Positions 312 to 8,851 of a stretch of DNA of 36,749 nucleotides are shown piece by piece (the first letter of the stretch is position 1; the number at the start of each line of letters is the position of its first letter). The notes beneath the pieces were generated by a model, which saw nothing but the letters and a program-made list of their open reading frames with translations, had not been told where the DNA came from and searched no databases. Position numbers and translations under genes: made by a program. The DNA comes from a virus: IMG/VR virus record IMGVR_UViG_3300042731_006647, positions 1-36,749 of that record. One strand, given 5' to 3'.

Positions 312-870
312 AGAGTTTGTGGTCGTTCAAAAAATGGAGTTGCTTCCTAACGAGGAGCTTATGGACCTTGTTGACAAGGTGTGCCAGTGTGTTGGTGAGT
401 TCCGCACTAAAAGCGAAAGAAAAGTTAACTTGATTGGTATCTTTGATGATCATATTGTCGTCAAAGATTTTGACACCGGCAGATGCTTCAAAATGCAAAT
501 GGAGAGGGCGGAAGATGGTACAGTTAAGGTAGATGGCCAAATGGTTGAGGTGAGGCAAACGTTTGTTGAAGTGGGTAAAGGAAAAGATAAAGACACGGAG
601 GGTGGAAAAGATCACGGTAAAGACAAACAAGAGGTCGGCGTGCAATGCTCTAGCTGTGATTATAAAGGGAAGGGGGAAGTTGGAGGGAAGTGCCCCCAGT
701 GTGGCGCTAAACTCGCTGCAATGGCGGAGGAGGGGTCTGAAGGTGCGAAGGATAAAAAGCCCACAGAAGATAAAGAGGATGAAAAGACAGAGAAGAGGGC
801 TACACCGCATTTCACAATTGTACCTATTGCCAAGTCAACGGAGTCCCTTTGGAAGGGTGTACTTTTCTAA
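304..870 (+). CDS. Zinc-ribbon phage protein, possibly related to the N-terminal part of XkdF-type proteins
   Basis: A 188-aa protein starting at ATG 304 behind a GGAGGAAGG ribosome site. Residues about 1-90 form a compact domain with 'IFDDHIVVKDFDTGRCFKM' and 'GQMVEVRQTFVEV', a pattern I associate with small phage proteins that accompany or precede XkdF-type prohead proteases. Residues 91-110 are a Lys/Gly/Asp linker. Residues 115-133 form a zinc ribbon with C115-x2-C118 and C130-x2-C133. A second charged linker follows. The last residues (HFTIVPIAKSTESLWKGVLF) read like the opening strand of an XkdF domain (compare 'KLIPIDKK...IAFGVVLEP' in the 776-aa protein downstream), but the frame stops there. 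The stop overlaps the next ATG as TAATG at 870. Function is unknown; a structural or assembly role is inferred from position. Confidence 0.6.
   Translation: MNKEFVVVQKMELLPNEELMDLVDKVCQCVGEFRTKSERKVNLIGIFDDHIVVKDFDTGRCFKMQMERAEDGTVKVDGQMVEVRQTFVEVGKGKDKDTEGGKDHGKDKQEVGVQCSSCDYKGKGEVGGKCPQCGAKLAAMAEEGSEGAKDKKPTEDKEDEKTEKRATPHFTIVPIAKSTESLWKGVLF
849..857 (+). repeat. 9-bp direct repeat at left border of the free-standing methyltransferase gene
   Basis: TTGGAAGGG at 849-857 recurs at 1736-1744, at the right end of the same gene. In both places it lies in the final codons of a gene (encoding WKG near the C-terminus) just before a stop. It may be chance, a shared gene-end, or a trace of insertion. 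Confidence 0.5.
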
Positions 871-1754
871 TGTCATCAAATGATATTATAAATAGTGCCG
901 TTAGTTTGGTACGTAGCATCAAACTTGAGAAATCCTTTCATGAAATTATCGAGCCTATATTTGGTAGTTTCATGGAAAAAAGGAATGGTGCTCTTTGGGG
1001 GTCGGCTGCGGGTAAAAGTCATATCGCTGATAAATTAATTCGGTTATTTCCAAGTTCATCGATTTATGTAGAGCCTTTTGCTGGGGGCGCTGGGGTATTT
1101 TGGGCGAAAGAGAAGCAGGGGACTGAGGTCTTAAATGATATAGATGTATTAGTATCTGGAGCGTTTAAGTTTCTGAGGGATCTTACAGATAGTGACATTT
1201 CGGATCTAAAGAAATTGGATTGGACAGTATCTAAGGAACTTTATGATAGATTGAAACGATCTAACCCTTCAAGTTTGTTAGAAGCATTTCATAAAACAGT
1301 TATGATTAGGTATGCAAGTTTTAGGATTCAGTGTGGGTCAATTGATCGCTCTGTGATTGGAAATACAATATTAGATCGTGTACTGAAAAGTTTGGACAAT
1401 GCCAAAGAGCGGTTACGGGGGGTAAAGATTTATGGTGAGGATTATAGGAAGACAGTGTCTCGGTATGATTCGAAAGACACGTTATTATTTTTAGATCCAC
1501 CATATGTAGAAACAAACGTAAGAGTTGGAGAGAAGGATTTTGATCACAAAGCATTTTTTGATTTTTTGGGGCAAGTAAAAAGTAAATTTTTAATTACTTA
1601 TGATAAGCCTGACCCTACGGGCAAATTTAAAACAAATAAGTTAAACCATAGTGCGTGGAGGGGTACAAACGTTGGGACCACAAGTCACACAACCTATATA
1701 ATAACGAACTATGAAATTCAGAAAAAGAGTGTTTCTTGGAAGGGGATCATTTAA
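870..1754 (+). CDS. D12-class (Dam-like) DNA N6-adenine methyltransferase
   Basis: A 294-aa protein. I prefer ATG 870, which overlaps the previous stop (TAATG) and has GGAAGGG 12 bases upstream; a TTG at 849 would add seven residues. It has the alpha-group order of D12 methyltransferases: an N-terminal 'AAGKSHIADKLIRLFP' helix, SAM-binding motif I around residues 66-75 (YVEPFAGGAGVF), a helical target-recognition region, and catalytic motif IV DPPY at residues 209-212. The expected reaction is SAM-dependent N6 methylation of adenine in phage DNA; the recognition site cannot be read from sequence. It is clearly paralogous to the second methyltransferase domain of the 776-aa fusion protein (LFPS.AGK, EPFAGGA, EKxFDHKAF, and NYxIQKxS near the end). 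No restriction enzyme gene is nearby, so protection from host restriction or timing of packaging or replication are the likely roles. Confidence 0.9.
   Translation: MSSNDIINSAVSLVRSIKLEKSFHEIIEPIFGSFMEKRNGALWGSAAGKSHIADKLIRLFPSSSIYVEPFAGGAGVFWAKEKQGTEVLNDIDVLVSGAFKFLRDLTDSDISDLKKLDWTVSKELYDRLKRSNPSSLLEAFHKTVMIRYASFRIQCGSIDRSVIGNTILDRVLKSLDNAKERLRGVKIYGEDYRKTVSRYDSKDTLLFLDPPYVETNVRVGEKDFDHKAFFDFLGQVKSKFLITYDKPDPTGKFKTNKLNHSAWRGTNVGTTSHTTYIITNYEIQKKSVSWKGII
1736..1744 (+). repeat. 9-bp direct repeat at right border of the free-standing methyltransferase gene
   Basis: This is the second copy of TTGGAAGGG (first at 849-857). It also forms the TTG start region of the Mu gpF-like gene, so its conservation may partly reflect translation-initiation needs. 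Confidence 0.5.
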
Positions 1755-2746
1755 TAAACCTTAGTTCCCTCTCAGATTTGGAGCTAGGGAGCCTTGCTCA
1801 TGAGGTGGACAGGACTCTGTGCGTCGTATTAAAAGTTAGCCCCAGAAAAGAATCCGAGTTAATTGAAAACCGCATGGCAAAACTGACTACTAAAGTATGG
1901 AAGTCAGTAGCTAACTCAACCATGTTGTCGGGTTTAAAAACGCTTGTCTCGAAACCCTACACCTCTAAATCAATAGGTGCCTTCTTAAAGAAATTTGGGT
2001 TAAAACTTTCTGAGCCACTGACGGATGGTCAGATAAAGGTGCTAGGCAATAACCTAAAGTCCATTTGGAAGATTGGCAAAAAACTAGCTGCACAAGAAAC
2101 CAAGACAGCGTTTAGTTTTGCGTCGGTGGATGCAAAAGCCATCGCCACAATTAATAAGCATCAAGTTTTTTGGATTGGTGATTTCTACTCTGACAAGTTA
2201 TCCGCGAGAGTCCGTGCTGTGACTGAGGATGTACTATTGCGACGAGGATTTGATCACGTCGAAGCTGGTGATGAATTGCAAAAAGCTTTACGTAGAGAGT
2301 TTGGTATAACTCCGGGGCATAGAGTTTCGACATTCGCCCCAAATGTGCCAGCAAGGTACGCAGCAAACCCAGACCTCTATTTCCAGCAACTCGCCTCTAC
2401 TGTAGGTCACCAGGCTAGGACGTTTGGCAAAATGCAGCAATTTAAAGAGCATGATGTTATTACGTACCGTCTGATTAATCCAATGGATGAAGTGACCGGG
2501 CAAATCTGCCAGCAAATGCATGGAAAGACATTCACAATCAGCGCTGGCATGAAACAGATGAAAGACGTGTTAAACGCCAAGTCACCCAAGGAAGTTAAGG
2601 ATGTGTCTAAGTGGCTGTCTGCGAATGAGATTGAAACGAAGTTCAGCAAAGGTGGGGCGCAGGCCTTAATCGATGCAGGTGCAACCATAATTCCACCATT
2701 TCACCCGAAGTGCAGAACTGAGCCGATAGTGGGGAAAATGAAATGA
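1736..2746 (+). CDS. Mu gpF-like minor head (head morphogenesis) protein
   Basis: A 336-aa protein. The C-terminal third carries the hallmark of the SPP1 gp7 / Mu gpF family: 'D-E-V-T-G-Q-I-C-Q-Q-M-H-G-K' with C258, and a final 'PPFHPKCRTE' with C326. Members are minor capsid proteins near the portal, often brought into the procapsid by it. The first roughly 200 residues are helical and unassigned. The best start is TTG 1736 with a weak AG-rich site (about 1720-1727), overlapping the methyltransferase end by 19 bases; in-frame ATG 1874 would lose 46 residues that look like genuine protein. The stop overlaps the next gene as ATGA. Between portal and this gene, where direct adjacency is usual, sit the zinc-ribbon and methyltransferase genes. 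Confidence 0.8.
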   Translation: MEGDHLINLSSLSDLELGSLAHEVDRTLCVVLKVSPRKESELIENRMAKLTTKVWKSVANSTMLSGLKTLVSKPYTSKSIGAFLKKFGLKLSEPLTDGQIKVLGNNLKSIWKIGKKLAAQETKTAFSFASVDAKAIATINKHQVFWIGDFYSDKLSARVRAVTEDVLLRRGFDHVEAGDELQKALRREFGITPGHRVSTFAPNVPARYAANPDLYFQQLASTVGHQARTFGKMQQFKEHDVITYRLINPMDEVTGQICQQMHGKTFTISAGMKQMKDVLNAKSPKEVKDVSKWLSANEIETKFSKGGAQALIDAGATIIPPFHPKCRTEPIVGKMK

Positions 2747-3021
2747 GTGTCATAATAAAACGGTATGTGATTCAGACATTGATTCTTTCTAAAGAGAGAT
2801 TCAAGACATTAACTGATGCAAAGAAGTGGGTTAAGGATCACCATTTTAAAGTGCCTGGTCAAAAACTGAACGTTCTAAAACCAGAGATTGACGAAACGAA
2901 TACTTCCTACAGATTTCGGCAACGACCACCATCGGATTTTGTGCAGGGGAGTTTTAGAACCATTTCTGTTACTAATGGTGTAAAGGCTGTAATTGGCCAG
3001 TTAAAAACGGGTAAGAAATAA
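2743..3021 (+). CDS. Small phage protein of unknown function in head-assembly context
   Basis: A 92-aa protein whose ATG overlaps the previous stop as ATGA, which implies coupled translation. The sequence has a recognisable two-part pattern: 'ILSKERFKTLTDAKKWVKDH' in the first half and 'SYRFRQRPPSDF' followed by 'GSFRT...NGVKAVIGQL' in the second half. I recall this pattern from short domains in phage head-assembly operons, sometimes adjacent to or fused with XkdF-type proteases, but I cannot name a function. There is no signal peptide, membrane segment or cysteine. It is basic at both ends. The reading frame is convincing because it fits perfectly between the Mu gpF-like gene and queD with only ten bases of spacer. 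Confidence 0.7.
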   Translation: MSVIIKRYVIQTLILSKERFKTLTDAKKWVKDHHFKVPGQKLNVLKPEIDETNTSYRFRQRPPSDFVQGSFRTISVTNGVKAVIGQLKTGKK

Positions 3022-3031
3022 AATAGAGTTT

Positions 3032-3409
3032 ATGCCTCGATTGGTCTTAGAAAAAAAGTTTGCATTTGAAGCGTCACATCAATTGATGCATCAAGAAAGT
3101 AAGTGCAGTCGTTTACATGGGCATTCATGGCATGGCAGTGTTATTTTAGAAAATAATTCACTTCAATCGAATTATTCTGACACAAGTATGGGTATGGAGT
3201 TCAGGTTTGTGGGCAATGCTCTTGAAGGTTTGGTTAACAGATATTTGAATCACCAGCATTTGAATGAGTCACTTAAAATGGATGCGCCCACATCCGCATC
3301 CGTTGCGAAATGGATTTACGACCGTTTAAAATTTGATCTGCCTTTGCTGGTTGCTGTTACCATAGAAGGGGCGTGTGATTGCAAATGGACTTATAGGGGA
3401 AATGGATAA
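3032..3409 (+). CDS. queD: QueD-like 6-carboxy-5,6,7,8-tetrahydropterin synthase
   Basis: A 125-aa protein of the PTPS/QueD family, full length for QueD (about 120 aa). It contains the zinc ligands H16 (FEASHQL), H29 and H31 (LHGH), catalytic-position C25, 'LNHQHLNE' at 72-79, 'PTSASVAKWIYDRL' at 86-99 and E112 in 'VTIEGACDCKWTYRG'. QueD converts 7,8-dihydroneopterin triphosphate to carboxy-tetrahydropterin, the second step from GTP towards 7-deazaguanines (preQ0). In phages these genes usually serve modification of guanine in phage DNA or supply of queuosine precursors. Against my memory of E. coli QueD, residue 73 is Asn where Asp precedes the catalytic His. The ribosome site is weak (AATAGAG). 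The gene overlaps the queE region directly downstream; queC and folE are not in this window. Confidence 0.9.
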   Translation: MPRLVLEKKFAFEASHQLMHQESKCSRLHGHSWHGSVILENNSLQSNYSDTSMGMEFRFVGNALEGLVNRYLNHQHLNESLKMDAPTSASVAKWIYDRLKFDLPLLVAVTIEGACDCKWTYRGNG

Positions 3410-4001
3410 AACTTACAAAGTAAATGAGATGTATTATAGCCTCCAAGGCGAAGGTGTCAGGGCTGGAATTGCACATGTATTTATTCGTTTCCATGGCTGT
3501 AATTTAGACTGTACAGAAACTAACGCTGGGTTTGATTGTGATACAAAAAACGATGCCTACAAAGAAATGTCAGCTATGGAAATATCTAAAAAGGCACTGT
3601 CTATTGTTGGCGGGGGCTGTGATTGGATACTTGTTACGGGGGGAGAGCCTTCATTACAGATAGACGGTCAACTTATCCACACGCTACACGCAAGTGGATT
3701 CAGGCTGGCCATTGAGAGCAACGGAACGCGACCATTGCCTCCTGGATTTGAATGGATTACAGTTAGCCCTAAAAAACATGGGGCTGTACTTCAAGGGTAC
3801 GCCGACGAATTGAAATATGTTATTCGTGCGGGAGATCCACTTCCGTTAGTGGCATGCCGTACCAAGAATTTTTTGTTGAGTCCGGCTTACGAGGGTAAGA
3901 AAGTCTCAAGAAAAAATTTGGAGTATTGCGTCAAGTTATGCCTTGAGAATCCTAAATGGCGTTTGTCTGTTCAGCAGCATAAATATTGGAAGATAAGGTA
4001 G
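3402..4001 (+). CDS. queE: QueE-like 7-carboxy-7-deazaguanine synthase (radical SAM)
   Basis: A 199-aa protein. I prefer ATG 3402 (MDKTYKVNEMYYSLQGEG, the typical QueE opening), although GTG 3375 is in frame and has its own AGAAGGGG. It overlaps the queD stop by eight bases. Motifs are SLQGEGVRAG (13-22), the cluster-binding region 'FHGCNLDCTETNAGFDCDT' (30-48) with C33, C37 and C46, the SAM-binding 'VTGGEPSLQ', and 'WITVSPKK' in the middle. QueE rearranges carboxy-tetrahydropterin to 7-carboxy-7-deazaguanine using SAM and a 4Fe-4S cluster. The cysteine spacing C-x3-C-x8-C differs from the common CX3CX2C; alternative spacings are known in QueE subfamilies. It is encoded with queD as a two-gene unit, so the phage supplies consecutive steps of preQ0 synthesis. 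Confidence 0.92.
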   Translation: MDKTYKVNEMYYSLQGEGVRAGIAHVFIRFHGCNLDCTETNAGFDCDTKNDAYKEMSAMEISKKALSIVGGGCDWILVTGGEPSLQIDGQLIHTLHASGFRLAIESNGTRPLPPGFEWITVSPKKHGAVLQGYADELKYVIRAGDPLPLVACRTKNFLLSPAYEGKKVSRKNLEYCVKLCLENPKWRLSVQQHKYWKIR

Positions 4002-4012
4002 GATATCAAAAA

Positions 4013-6343
4013 ATGGATCCTAAAGAGAAACAGATGGATGTTGATAGCGTGTTACAAAAAGCCAAAGATATTGTGGCGGAGAATAATTATAATTGTGTAG
4101 AGCTTTGCAAGCGAAGCATTGCACCGTGCGAGGGAATACCGGGTCAGGGCTTTTTCAATTCCTTTGGGAGTTTAACTCGCTTTGCTGATAAAATACTACC
4201 GTTGTTCCCCGAGCCCGGTTTTAAAAAGTATGTTGAGTTATTTTGTGGTAAGGGCGAAATGCTATGGTGCCATAAAAAGTCGGCAGACGAAGAGTTTATG
4301 AATGACTTGGATGATAGGATTATCCGGCTACATAAGATATGTCAGGGGATCACCGAAATACAGTTGGACTCTTTAGCTAAGATGGATTGGGTTGGTAGTC
4401 AAAAGACTTTTGAGTTATTGAAGAACGCAAAACGCCCGCAGGAAGATTTAAAGTTTTTTTATCGGGAACTTTATCTCCGCAGGTTTAGCAAGTCTGGCAG
4501 GGCGCGGCCTAGGTTTCAGGAATGGGCTGAGGGTCAAGTATGTAATTTAATCAAGCGAATAGTAAGGTGTAGGGAAAGGCTGCAAGGAGTTAGAATAATC
4601 CACGCGGATTATGCAAAAACCTTAAAGCAATTAGATAGTAAGGATACATTTTTCTTTATAGATCCACCATACCCTGATGAGGGCGGTTATTACCCAATAA
4701 AGATGCCAGATCTGGCTGTCCAGGCGGCTAACTATAAAAATGTTGCTGGGAAACTAATGATTGTAATAGAAGGTAGCAACAAGTCTTTAGCTGCGCTACG
4801 TAAGCTTAATTTTGTTGAGAAGAAATTTAAGTTGCCGCGTGGTTGGCATAATAGCCCTAAAGGGCCTGACAAAAGTTTTGTTTGGGCTAGCATATTTATG
4901 AATTACCAGCCAAATATGCTAGCCGCTAAAAAGTTCTTTATGCCCGTAATGAAAGTTGAAACTGTAGATATAACGGTTTCTGGTAAAAGTTTACGTATGA
5001 ATCATCAAAAGGCGTTAGAAAAATCACGTGATTTGATAAGGCATACCAAGATGGAAATGGCACTAGGTTTCGTTGCTGACTTGGTTCTCAGTGAGGACTT
5101 AATTTGTAAACGGTCTGATAGGCTTTTCCCTTCCACGGCAGGAAAATGCCACATTGCTAGTAGGCTTTTGTGTTTATTTCCTGATCACAATGGTTATATC
5201 GAACCTTTTGCTGGTGGCGCTGCTTTATTTTTTGCTAAAGAAAAGAAACCTGTAGAGGCATTAAATGACACCCATGCCGCTGTTATGACTTGTTATAAGT
5301 TTGTGCAGAATATAACACAAGAGCAGATTAACAAGCTGAAAAAAATGAATTGGGTTGCCACGCGGGATCACCGGAAGAAATTACAAGAATCCTCCCCAAC
5401 AGACCCTTTATTGATATTCCATAGATTAACAATGCTGAGGTTTAGCGGGTTTAATAAGAATGAAAATTCAAAAGGTATGGCGCGTGAACAAGAAGGTAAG
5501 GAATTAAAAATTATCGATAGGCTTATAGGAGCCAAAGAACGTCTAAAAAATACTAAATTATATTGTGGTGATTATCGTAAAATTATGTCCAAATACGACG
5601 GGATGAAAGACATATTTTTTTTCTTAGACCCTCCATATGTTAATGCTAACGTTGCGGACATAGGAGTAAAGGAGTTTGATCACAAGGCGTTTTGGGAGTG
5701 CGTGTATAACTTGAAAAGTAAGTATCTGGTGGCGTATAACCAGCGTGACCCAGAAAAAAAGCTTGGTGTCAAAAAAATTAAACATCTTGCTGCATCCAAT
5801 ATTGGCTCTAAAGAGTATATAACTTATGTGTTAACAAATTATGATATCCAAAAAGAGAGCAGTGTTTGGCGCGGCTTTACGAAAAATCAGTCAGAGGCTA
5901 TTGCTTTCCTACCATCTGATATTCAGGACAATCTTCGAAAAATCAATGCGACAATAGAAAAGTGCCTTGAAGTAAAGCTGATTCCTATTGATAAGAAAGC
6001 ACCGGACGATAAGCAAATTGCTTTTGGTGTTGTTTTAGAGCCTAATGAAGTTGATTCGCAGGGGGACATAATACCGGAAGCAGAAATTGAAAAAGCTGCC
6101 CACTTGTGGCTTGCACGGTATCAAGACCGTGGATTTATGCACGATAAAATAGTAAACTCTAAAATTGAGATTTACGAATCATATATAGCGCCAACAAACT
6201 TAAACATAAATGGTCAGCAGGTTAAAAAAGGAACATGGCTTTTGATGTACCACATTCTAGACTCTGAGCTTTGGAAGAAAATAAAAAGCGGTGAGCAGAC
6301 GGGTTTTTCAATGGGAGGGTTTGCAAGACGGGTCAAAGTCTAG
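4013..6343 (+). CDS. Fusion: two Dam-like methyltransferase domains plus XkdF-type prohead protease domain
   Basis: A 776-aa protein; ATG 4013 is preferred because AGGTAGGA lies nine bases upstream (TTG 3986 would add nine residues). Domain 1 (about 30-300): D12 methyltransferase with motif I 'YVELFCGKGEM' at 73-83 and DPPY at 217-220. Domain 2 (about 365-630): a second D12 domain with 'IEPFAGGAALFFAKEK' at about 396-411 and DPPY at 539-542, closely similar to the free-standing enzyme at 870-1754. Domain 3 (about 656-776): XkdF-like 'FGVVLEPNEVDSQGD...KAAHLWL', 'ESYIAPTN', 'KKGTWLL' and terminal 'SGEQTGFSMGGFARRV'. XkdF is annotated as a putative phage serine protease for head maturation. Placement directly before scaffold and capsid genes is where a prohead protease belongs. 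Both DPPY motifs are intact; domain 1 has Cys-Gly-Lys-Gly in place of the usual Ala-Gly-Gly. No stop or frameshift separates the domains, so this is a true fusion in this sequence. Confidence 0.88.
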   Translation: MDPKEKQMDVDSVLQKAKDIVAENNYNCVELCKRSIAPCEGIPGQGFFNSFGSLTRFADKILPLFPEPGFKKYVELFCGKGEMLWCHKKSADEEFMNDLDDRIIRLHKICQGITEIQLDSLAKMDWVGSQKTFELLKNAKRPQEDLKFFYRELYLRRFSKSGRARPRFQEWAEGQVCNLIKRIVRCRERLQGVRIIHADYAKTLKQLDSKDTFFFIDPPYPDEGGYYPIKMPDLAVQAANYKNVAGKLMIVIEGSNKSLAALRKLNFVEKKFKLPRGWHNSPKGPDKSFVWASIFMNYQPNMLAAKKFFMPVMKVETVDITVSGKSLRMNHQKALEKSRDLIRHTKMEMALGFVADLVLSEDLICKRSDRLFPSTAGKCHIASRLLCLFPDHNGYIEPFAGGAALFFAKEKKPVEALNDTHAAVMTCYKFVQNITQEQINKLKKMNWVATRDHRKKLQESSPTDPLLIFHRLTMLRFSGFNKNENSKGMAREQEGKELKIIDRLIGAKERLKNTKLYCGDYRKIMSKYDGMKDIFFFLDPPYVNANVADIGVKEFDHKAFWECVYNLKSKYLVAYNQRDPEKKLGVKKIKHLAASNIGSKEYITYVLTNYDIQKESSVWRGFTKNQSEAIAFLPSDIQDNLRKINATIEKCLEVKLIPIDKKAPDDKQIAFGVVLEPNEVDSQGDIIPEAEIEKAAHLWLARYQDRGFMHDKIVNSKIEIYESYIAPTNLNINGQQVKKGTWLLMYHILDSELWKKIKSGEQTGFSMGGFARRVKV

Positions 6344-6362
6344 GTAGAATATTCGGTGATTC

Positions 6363-7595
6363 ATGGATAAAGAAAAAGACAAGGACGCGAAAGCGCGATT
6401 AGAAAATTTAAGTGTGCGGGAAGTGTCTATAGTTGACCGTCCTGCCAACCAAAGGCGGTTTCTAATCGTTAAGAAGGCATCGGGAGGTGCTTCTAACGAG
6501 GTTTTGGAACTGCTGAAAACGGAGGATCACGCAATGAGAAAGGCTATTGTGCCTTCACAGGCAGCCCAACACGGGATCGTGGTTAATTACGACACTTCCG
6601 ACAACCAGGAGCCCATAGAAAAGAACGCTGAGTTTTCCAGCTTTCTTGATGTTTTAGGGATAATCGATGATAATGCAGAAGATTCTGAACGTTCAGAAGA
6701 CGACCATGTGGAAGTATCTGCTGATATTGAGGCCGAATTGATCCCTATTACAAAAGACGTCAAACAGACAGCTCTTGGTGAAGCAACCAAAATTCTTGAA
6801 TCGCTAATGGCGTCTGTGAACCAGGCTAAAACAGATGGTGACGTAAACGACAAAGTGAAAAGCACCGTGCAAAACGTGTCTCAAGCTATCAAAAACTTAG
6901 CTTCTAAACTCGGCGGGAAAGACACGGGCAGTAATCAACCAACGGATAAGGGCGGGGACGTTGTTAGTAAGCTCACCGCAGCCCTTGAAAAGTTGATCGC
7001 GATAGTAGAGAAGATCAAAAAACTTGATGATTCAGTAGATCAAGTTCCAGGGGATATTATCCAAGAGCTGAACGCCCTTAGCGCTGCATTGGCGGGCATG
7101 CTTCAACCCCAGGCAAAAGAGCCACCGCAGGAAGAGAAACAAGAGAAAGCTCAGGTTGGAGCAGGCGATACAGCGGTTGAGATATTCACTAGGGATATTG
7201 AAAACGATGTGGCAGTGGTTTTGAAAGCCGGTTCTAAAATGAGTAAGAGCCGTTTAAGCTCCCTCAAAAAAGCCGTTGAAATTTTATCATCGATAATCAC
7301 TGAAATTGAAGGTAGCCCAGAAGATAAGAAAGATGATAAAAAGGATGTAAAGAAAGTTGAATCTCCACCACCTATTGATGAGACCAAAATCATAGAGGAG
7401 GTCAAAAAATCACTAGGTGAAGATATCACAAAGCAGTTGAAGGAATTAGTGAATACAGTAAGTGTAAGGTTTGAAGCAATCAAGAAACGAATTGACGATA
7501 TAGAAGACGCGAGACCAGCAGGTAACACGGATTTTGATCCACCTGCTAAAGTCGAGAAAAAGAGATCGCTGTTTTCTAACATTATCCCAATATAA
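6363..7595 (+). CDS. Capsid scaffold-like protein with prohead-protease tail motif at its N-terminus
   Basis: A 410-aa, highly charged, helix-rich protein between the protease fusion and the major capsid gene, the usual place for a scaffold. Residues about 12-38 contain 'LSVREVSIVDRPANQRRFLI', a motif commonly seen in phage prohead protease/XkdF-type proteins after the catalytic domain. The remainder alternates predicted coiled coils (for example 'ETKIIEEVKKSLGEDITKQL' and 'VSVRFEAIKKRIDDIEDA') with acidic and Pro/Glu/Lys linkers, consistent with a scaffold that is cut and released during maturation. No cysteines are visible. ATG 6363 has no strong ribosome site, so translation may depend on coupling to the gene 19 bases upstream. 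Scaffold function is inferred from composition and position, not from a named family. Confidence 0.65.
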   Translation: MDKEKDKDAKARLENLSVREVSIVDRPANQRRFLIVKKASGGASNEVLELLKTEDHAMRKAIVPSQAAQHGIVVNYDTSDNQEPIEKNAEFSSFLDVLGIIDDNAEDSERSEDDHVEVSADIEAELIPITKDVKQTALGEATKILESLMASVNQAKTDGDVNDKVKSTVQNVSQAIKNLASKLGGKDTGSNQPTDKGGDVVSKLTAALEKLIAIVEKIKKLDDSVDQVPGDIIQELNALSAALAGMLQPQAKEPPQEEKQEKAQVGAGDTAVEIFTRDIENDVAVVLKAGSKMSKSRLSSLKKAVEILSSIITEIEGSPEDKKDDKKDVKKVESPPPIDETKIIEEVKKSLGEDITKQLKELVNTVSVRFEAIKKRIDDIEDARPAGNTDFDPPAKVEKKRSLFSNIIPI

Positions 7596-7654: not shown

Positions 7655-8851
7655 ATGACAAACGAGGAACTAATCCGAAAAGCGACCATCACCACGGATC
7701 AAATGGCCAGTGCTGGTCTTCTTAACGCAGAACAATCATCGAAATTCATTGATTACGTGATTGATGAAACATCGATGAAAGAAAAGGTGCGGGTGGTTAA
7801 GTTCAAACCATCCCAGATGACCATTGAAAAATTGAACGTTGCAAATCGCGTTGCCGTAGCAAAAGCACAAGCAACGGACCCTGGATTACGAAGAGGTGTC
7901 AGCACGTCAAAAGTGACGTTGGAGCACCACGAAATTATGGTCCCATTTGAGATTGGTGACACAGTAAAAGAGGAAAATATCGAGGGGGATAATGTAGAGG
8001 ACCATATTATTAAAATGATGGCAACCGCTCTGGCGAATAACTTGGAGGAAGGTTACTGGGACGGTAACACAACGGGCCATGCTGTTTTGGAAAGCGAACT
8101 CCTAGAAGGTGGTTCAAGTTCACTTTACATCAAAGATCAATATCTAGCCCTTTACAATGGTTGGCTGAAAAACGCTGAGTCTGGTCATGTGGTGGATGCA
8201 GCCGGTGCCGCTATCAGTAAAGGAATTTTCAGCCAAGCATTAAATGCTATGCCGAGAAAGTTCAAAAAAGACAAAAGCAAACTAAAGTTCATGCTGTCAT
8301 CCGACCATGAACAGGAATACCGTGACTTTATTTCCAGCCGTATTGGAAAAGCAGCGGATGATGCCTTAGAAGGTAAGGGAACGCTTCCTGCCTATGGTGT
8401 TGATTTAATGCCTGTTCCACTTTTAAGCCCAACGCCTATTTACACCGAGAACGTGGCTGCTAATTCTGATGGTACTAGCTCCACTAGCCTGTCCTATGCT
8501 CCAATCACGAACCTTGTGATTATCCCAACGACCTTGGCGGATAACCCATTAGCGAAGTATGTTATCACGACGGATTATACACAAGATTTAGCAAATGGAA
8601 CGTGGATCCGTGAAACGGCTGGAGCAATCCCAAGTGGTGGCACCGTAAAATGCACGTACAACACGGGTGGAAGAATCCTCCTAACGAACCTTAAGAATAT
8701 GATTGTAGCTATTGGCAGAGAGATCCGCATTGAAAGGGCAAGGAATATTTTCCGCACCGTAAATGAATTTGCTATCACAGTTAAGACTTTTGCCACGTTT
8801 GAGGAGACGGACGCCGTTGTGTTGGTGAAAAATCTGGCTGTGCCAAGCTAG
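7655..8851 (+). CDS. Major capsid protein (HK97 fold)
   Basis: A 398-aa protein behind the strong site TAGGAGGAATTGAC. Length and order (protease, scaffold, capsid) match HK97-fold major capsid proteins. Visible elements are the N-terminal helical arm (residues 1-40), an 'HEIMVPFEIGDTVKEENIEG' strand typical of the E-loop/P-domain boundary, a helix with 'HIIKMMATALANNLEEGYWDG' in the spine-helix region, a P-domain segment with 'KLKFMLSSDHEQEYRDFI', and a C-terminal beta-rich A-domain ending 'TFATFEETDAVVLVKNLAV'. A long proteolytically removed N-terminal delta domain is not evident, which agrees with a separate scaffold gene. It assembles the icosahedral shell. Cysteines are almost absent. 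No family-specific motif is diagnostic at this distance, but position, size and composition agree well. Confidence 0.85.
   Translation: MTNEELIRKATITTDQMASAGLLNAEQSSKFIDYVIDETSMKEKVRVVKFKPSQMTIEKLNVANRVAVAKAQATDPGLRRGVSTSKVTLEHHEIMVPFEIGDTVKEENIEGDNVEDHIIKMMATALANNLEEGYWDGNTTGHAVLESELLEGGSSSLYIKDQYLALYNGWLKNAESGHVVDAAGAAISKGIFSQALNAMPRKFKKDKSKLKFMLSSDHEQEYRDFISSRIGKAADDALEGKGTLPAYGVDLMPVPLLSPTPIYTENVAANSDGTSSTSLSYAPITNLVIIPTTLADNPLAKYVITTDYTQDLANGTWIRETAGAIPSGGTVKCTYNTGGRILLTNLKNMIVAIGREIRIERARNIFRTVNEFAITVKTFATFEETDAVVLVKNLAVPS

Follow-up and report, generated by a model that had tools for sequence, protein, structure and literature searches.

Organisation of the locus

The window, by which we mean the whole stretch of DNA analysed, spans 36,749 bases and corresponds to a linear virus record. 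Starting from its left end, it carried the end of a portal gene (recognised by its resemblance to L003), a zinc-ribbon-like ORF, a free-standing D12 methyltransferase gene (D12c), a MuF-like gene, a small ORF, QueD- and QueE-like genes, a long ORF in which two D12 domains are fused to an XkdF domain, a scaffold ORF and a capsid protein gene (Table 1). The XkdF domain was thereby placed between the portal/MuF-like and the scaffold/capsid genes. Genes for tail sheath, tape measure and baseplate followed downstream of the capsid gene, which identifies the virus as a contractile-tailed phage. At the right end, the window breaks off within a long open frame that probably encodes a tail fibre. The virus infects bacteria or archaea; tRNA and Rfam searches of the window returned no match.

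Table 1. Features of the head-gene region of the window (position 1 is the first base of the window).
Feature	Position	Strand	Basis and remarks
D12c, free-standing D12 methyltransferase	849..1754	+	Pfam, tree; nearest relatives are D12b and the L002 fused D12
MuF-like minor head protein	1736..2746	+	Profile matches
Small ORF, 92 aa, SFRTI..GVKAVIG motif	2743..3021	+	Translations compared by eye; without Pfam match
QueD-like 6-pyruvoyl-tetrahydropterin synthase	3032..3409	+	Profile matches
QueE-like radical SAM enzyme	3375..4001	+	Profile matches
Fused ORF, D12a - D12b - linker - XkdF, 776 aa	4013..6343	+	ORF and Pfam
D12a, first D12 domain (predicted N6-adenine methyltransferase)	4145..4927	+	Profile, motifs, tree
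D12b, second D12 domain, AGK-type	5087..5872	+	Pfam, PDB sequence match, motifs, tree
Linker between D12b and XkdF	5873..5977	+	Domain borders; putative site of proteolytic release
XkdF / Peptidase_S78_2 domain (PF14550)	5978..6340	+	Pfam; conserved His/Ser
Scaffold ORF, separate, starts ...VREVSIVDRPANQRRFLIVKK	6363..7595	+	Matches phrog_3017 (head maturation protease) in the C-terminal part that follows XkdF
Capsid protein gene	7655..8851	+	phrog_1623, virion structural protein

The myxococcal counterpart of the capsid protein also matched the phrog_10 major head protein. Relatives of the small ORF were found as an internal domain of two D12-XkdF fusions, L002 (3979-6378) and L016 (2407-4971). 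The QueD- and QueE-like genes (3032-4001), which belong to the 7-deazaguanine precursor pathway, were located within the head module, directly upstream of the fused ORF. FolE, QueC and DpdA were not identified among the window proteins searched, so that deazaguanine modification of the DNA is possible but unproven.

Domain content of the fused ORF

The fused ORF is open for 776 codons from the ATG at 4013, with a TTG at 3986 as an alternative start that would extend it to 785 codons. In Pfam searches, MethyltransfD12 was matched across two stretches with a total of 104.1 bits (cut-off 22) and Peptidase_S78_2/XkdF with 103.6 bits (cut-off 24), the latter at residues 670-783 of the 785-aa frame. 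An earlier note on this DNA had described two D12 domains and an XkdF domain in a single uninterrupted frame. Reading of the ORF and profile scores above the curated cut-offs confirmed this description, both domain assignments being upheld. The motifs lay exactly where the note had put them, motif I at residues 74-81 and 396-403 of the translation (given there as about 73-83 and 396-411) and DPPY at 217-220 and 539-542. The XkdF part carried the motifs FMHD (708-711) and GFSMGG (764-769).

Inspection of the fused-ORF sequence between the second D12 domain and XkdF revealed no start codon with a Shine-Dalgarno-like stretch, and thus no sequence sign that XkdF is translated separately. A frameshift or read-through linking the fused ORF to the scaffold ORF was also considered, and rejected because a TGA (6357-6359) lies in the scaffold frame just before its ATG at 6363. 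The full-length AF2 model of the fused protein (pLDDT 59.7) was too poor for use.

As the fusion contig comes from a single virus record, an assembly or sequencing artefact might have joined separate genes. However, the D12-D12-XkdF order recurred in L074/L075, which are independent contigs, as well as in chromosomes of myxococcal genomes, and the architecture was found in chromosomes assembled as single contigs. An assembly error is therefore very unlikely, and this explanation, to which we give next to no weight, is refuted in practice.

Two D12 domains of different kinds

Scored singly against MethyltransfD12 (PF02086, cut-off 22), D12b reached 73.5 bits, D12c 59.6 bits and D12a 37.2 bits. 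In sequence searches of the PDB, D12b matched DpnM (2dpm, E 3e-9) and Dam-type DNA adenine methylases, and for D12a the match was with 7m6b (E 5e-4), which is a site-specific adenine methyltransferase. The second domain displayed motif X (TAGKCHIA, 5135-5158), motif I (IEPFAGGA, 5198-5221), whose FAGGA is common to fused relatives, and DPPY (5627-5638). D12a exhibited motif I (VELFCGKG, 4232-4255) and FFFIDPPYP, with DPPY at 4661-4672; at the place where the GK of motif X is usual it had FGSLTRFA, whereas motif X was kept in both D12b and D12c.

In the tree, D12b and D12c grouped with the D12 domain of L002 (support 100/98). D12a was divergent, on a long branch, and grouped with moderate support (82/77) with "GGS-type" D12 domains, which are the partners of an AGK-type domain in other tandems. 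A sister pair of D12a and D12b was rejected (p-AU 0.0195), ruling out D12a as a plain duplicate of D12b, while a position of D12a within the AGK clade was not rejected (p-AU 0.22). The two D12 domains of the earlier note are thus both present, with the refinement, based on the tree and the AU test, that they are of different kinds and did not arise by simple duplication. An AGK-type domain was paired with a GGS-type one in 12 of the 13 tandems that we collected, a count in which the GGS assignment of D12a is not independent, since D12a was among the sequences used to build the GGS profile. The idea that GGS-type D12 domains are confined to tandems was rejected: they occurred alone in four fusions and in several XkdF-less proteins, and the AGK/GGS pair is therefore not obligatory.

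By analogy, the D12 pair of the window recalls M.FokI, its closest functional model. In this enzyme, two adenine methyltransferase domains are carried by one chain, one for each strand of the asymmetric site GGATG/CATCC (PMC5974420). M.FokI differs from the window protein in being a restriction-system enzyme, without a protease or phage head context, and the likeness lies in the presence of two unlike methyltransferase domains per chain. As in M.FokI, the two unlike D12 domains would most simply serve both strands of an asymmetric site.

The XkdF domain and the linker

His710 (codon 6140-6142) and Ser766 (codon 6308-6310) were invariant in 52 aligned XkdF sequences and are candidate catalytic residues. 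The AF2 model of the XkdF domain (pLDDT 86) had no match among the solved structures of the PDB (best E 0.12); the protease fold thus stands without structural confirmation, and only the His and the Ser can be named. A fold search matched the model to viral XkdF and prohead protease models, with E values down to 4e-16. XkdF-like models were also found in viral proteins named as zeta toxin domain or ChaB proteins (A0A6J5PIT0, A0A6J5KKZ6, and A0A6J5M6S8), predicted structures hinting at still other cargo domains.

Two layouts of XkdF genes were distinguished. In the first, found in Bacillus, Lactococcus, and Enterococcus phages or prophages, a ..HVSYVDKAANxKxFFxxK.. motif, XkdF and a scaffold tail form one chain. 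In the second, which includes the window, XkdF is preceded by 7 to more than 1,400 residues and closes the ORF to within a few residues of its stop; motif and scaffold are encoded by the next gene, whose product carries an ..EVS.VD..AN.. motif. We had considered the EVSIVD..AN motif of the scaffold ORF as the last strand of the protease; this candidate was dropped, as class A proteins have the motif before XkdF.

Among 18 myxococcal proteins, median dN/dS (from pairs that are not independent) was 0.20 (D12), 0.13 (XkdF) and 0.65 (linker); the linker was also variable in length. The D12 and XkdF parts of these relatives are therefore under purifying selection, and the D12 motifs are retained. 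To judge from these sequences, conserved ends with a loose join are as would be expected of a tether or processing zone.

Selection on the D12 parts also bears on whether these domains are active. D12a may be inactive, given its lack of the motif X GK and its long branch, and one or both D12 domains, D12a above all, might have lost catalysis and serve instead in DNA binding or assembly, for instance as a hold on DNA or on the portal. The divergence of D12a would fit such a role, as would the fact that simple single-D12 versions are enough in most relatives. However, DPPY and motif I are retained in both D12a and D12b, and the purifying selection and retained motifs of the myxococcal D12 parts also speak against it; we regard this explanation as improbable.

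Fusions to XkdF in other genomes

When viral contigs were scanned for close relatives of the entire window protein, there was no match; XkdF-only and profile scans were therefore used. Fusions were sought in viral contigs, genome contigs, and 195 Myxococcota genomes, and were counted as distinct when their XkdF domains were less than 90% identical (L150 and L152, which are the window itself, were counted once). This search for the architecture described in the earlier note yielded 62 distinct D12-XkdF fusions, a sample drawn with D12 and XkdF queries, so that the counts are not natural frequencies. Of these, 45 had a single AGK-type D12, 4 had a single GGS-type D12 (with one of the four truncated at the 5' end), and the other 13 contained two or three D12 domains. 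With at least 62 distinct fusions, the arrangement is not unique to the phage of the window. In the collection of isolated phages, none matched more than 80% of the window protein or of a myxococcal D12-XkdF protein.

XkdF was detected in 31 of the 195 Myxococcota genomes, where most such loci hold a D12-XkdF frame, and intact copies were present in about 25 genomes, some of them in single-contig chromosomes and some in two copies. The order of the myxococcal operon was portal, MuF-like, D12-XkdF, scaffold, capsid protein, and tail sheath. At loci L183 and L186-L190, D12-XkdF lay in prophage-like operons of the contractile-tail kind, of which some chromosomes had two.

Other enzymes were found in front of XkdF: a C5-methyltransferase with an ATP-dependent DNA ligase (L070); a D12 domain with a ligase (L061); three D12 domains with a ligase (L185); and a ligase with a D12 domain (L204, L222, and L296). 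Stretches resembling a nucleotidyltransferase and a LigD phosphoesterase were also recognised there, by eye only. In L320 (1292-5542), a 1416-aa protein combining NUDIX, ATP-dependent DNA ligase, uracil-DNA glycosylase, and D12 domains was encoded immediately upstream of a D12-XkdF gene. In the ANMV-1 virus, the same ligase-type protein stops where XkdF would start. As this ligase module lacks XkdF and D12c is free in the window, such enzymes need not be fused.

One XkdF fusion (L014, 3814-6417; also L013) was interrupted in its N-terminal part by a Hint/LAGLIDADG-like insert that is probably an intein. A Vsr-like endonuclease ORF, recognised by eye, adjoins the C5-methyltransferase/ligase/XkdF fusion of L070 (1003-1431, minus strand).

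Possible role of the fusion

The head-maturation proteases of HK97 and T4 enter the procapsid with the scaffold, and cut themselves and their neighbours. Since such proteases enter with the scaffold, a domain fused in front of one would be carried in with it. The recurrence of unlike DNA enzymes in the XkdF slot points to a function connected with the packaged genome, of which delivery would be the simplest form. As these enzymes all act on DNA or nucleotides, delivery with the genome also fits better than a chance coupling of expression. Their presence in this slot in many uncultured viruses and in Myxococcus-type prophages suggests that they are packed in the head and delivered with the DNA.

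The reading that we prefer, with a probability of roughly 0.45, is that the window protein is a protease-anchored polyvalent protein. In this late head-module protein, the N-terminal pair of unlike D12 N6-adenine methyltransferases would be the cargo, and the C-terminal XkdF domain the carrier. The XkdF part would join the scaffold, encoded by the next ORF, inside the procapsid, bringing the methyltransferases along. At maturation, the protease would cut the flexible linker, leaving the methyltransferases in the head, to be ejected with the genome; they could then methylate the incoming DNA, or complete its methylation, against host restriction. The earlier note had already proposed the protease as the vehicle by which the methyltransferases would reach the procapsid. 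Its domain reading was correct, and the recurrence of unlike DNA enzymes in the slot and the fast-evolving linker between two conserved domains add to it, making this the best-supported option; from sequence, we infer entry, release by cleavage, retention, ejection, methylation and its target, and the activity of the protease itself.

A serious rival, albeit a less probable one, is that the methyltransferases work in the cytoplasm before packaging, as phage Dam enzymes usually do. The fusion would then only tie their expression to the late genes, the protease might cut them off as from a polyprotein, and nothing active would be delivered. The free-standing D12c in the same operon and the free D12 genes of many phages are consistent with this. 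However, it offers no obvious reason why several unrelated DNA enzymes, ligase included, should have repeatedly and deeply retained a fusion to a head protease, simple co-expression being already provided by adjacent genes.

The same domain and operon evidence would accommodate methylation at the procapsid, with the fusion holding the methyltransferases at the packaging site, DNA being marked while it is threaded in, and the enzymes then being cut and lost. This would explain the anchoring to a protease, and also that the enzyme could be dispensed with afterwards. Nevertheless, the catalytic parts would lie inside the shell, where packed DNA is poorly accessible, and a ligase in the XkdF slot better fits entry into the next cell; we consider methylation at this stage rather unlikely.

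Returning to carriage into the head with delivery, the same could tentatively be extended to XkdF proteases in general. These may carry a broad class of virion-delivered polyproteins for DNA modification and repair, with methyltransferases of the N6-adenine and C5 kinds, ATP-dependent DNA ligase, and further enzymes of nucleic acids. The domain that matures the capsid would also load this cargo into the procapsid and free it by self-cleavage, as an entry protection and repair kit for phages of many hosts. If the cargo reading is true, one widespread capsid-protease family would explain how methyltransferases and ligases enter with the genome in many uncultured phages, and fusion to a protease that is obliged to enter the procapsid would be added to the mechanisms of enzyme loading. 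Virion-borne enzyme entry has so far been tied to few cases, such as P1 DarB and T4 Alt. The intact fusions in Myxococcota prophage-like operons make the cargo reading testable in a laboratory host.

Comparison with known systems

P1 DarB, MuF and portal fusions, and T4 Alt are head-associated, multidomain polyvalent or antirestriction proteins with DNA-modifying enzymes, which are thought to be delivered with the DNA (PMC5512222); P1 DarB sets a precedent for a DNA methylase borne in the virion. Like the polyvalent proteins, the window fusion combines several enzymatic domains in one protein among virion genes, but it is built on XkdF, whereas their basis is MPTase, ArdC, MuF, or portal domains and SNF2-coupled methylases. 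The hub domains MPTase, ArdC, MuF, and SNF2 were absent from the Pfam matches of the window protein, while the N6A methylase, also a hub, was present. The window protein would work like a polyvalent protein, but it lacks most hub domains and its virion location is presumptive, and we do not file it as a member. The text of PMC5512222 names a prohead protease only in its reference list, and no description of an XkdF anchor was found; the single mention of XkdF in a jumbo-phage survey is as a head peptidase.

A literature search of open-licence PMC papers found no published description of a methyltransferase-XkdF or ligase-XkdF fusion. Single D12-XkdF proteins are already known, collected without a function in PHROG 13242 (450 aa, unknown function), which spans a D12 domain followed by XkdF and matched the 785-aa frame from residue 380 to residue 783 (345 bits). 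This family has only one D12 domain, whereas the window protein has an additional, different D12 in front. The Bacillus/Lactococcus-type XkdF protease (phrog_3017; L050 and L052) resembles that of the window in its invariant His and Ser and in its place before the capsid genes. It differs in uniting motif, XkdF, and scaffold in a single chain, whereas in the window XkdF closes the methyltransferase ORF, and motif and scaffold are separate.

In PaP1-type Pakpunavirus (PaP1 gp048, 156 aa), XkdF ends the ORF and is followed by a separate scaffold-sized ORF, as in the window; unlike in the window, almost nothing precedes XkdF and there is no methyltransferase domain. PaP1 gp048 (L049, 4025-4495) and the XkdF-only proteins of about 156 aa in many other Pakpunavirus records are annotated as "DNA methyltransferase", a label apparently carried over from fusion proteins (phrog_1530). 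This annotation can be corrected, as Pakpunavirus XkdF proteases such as that of PaP1 have no methyltransferase domain despite their label.
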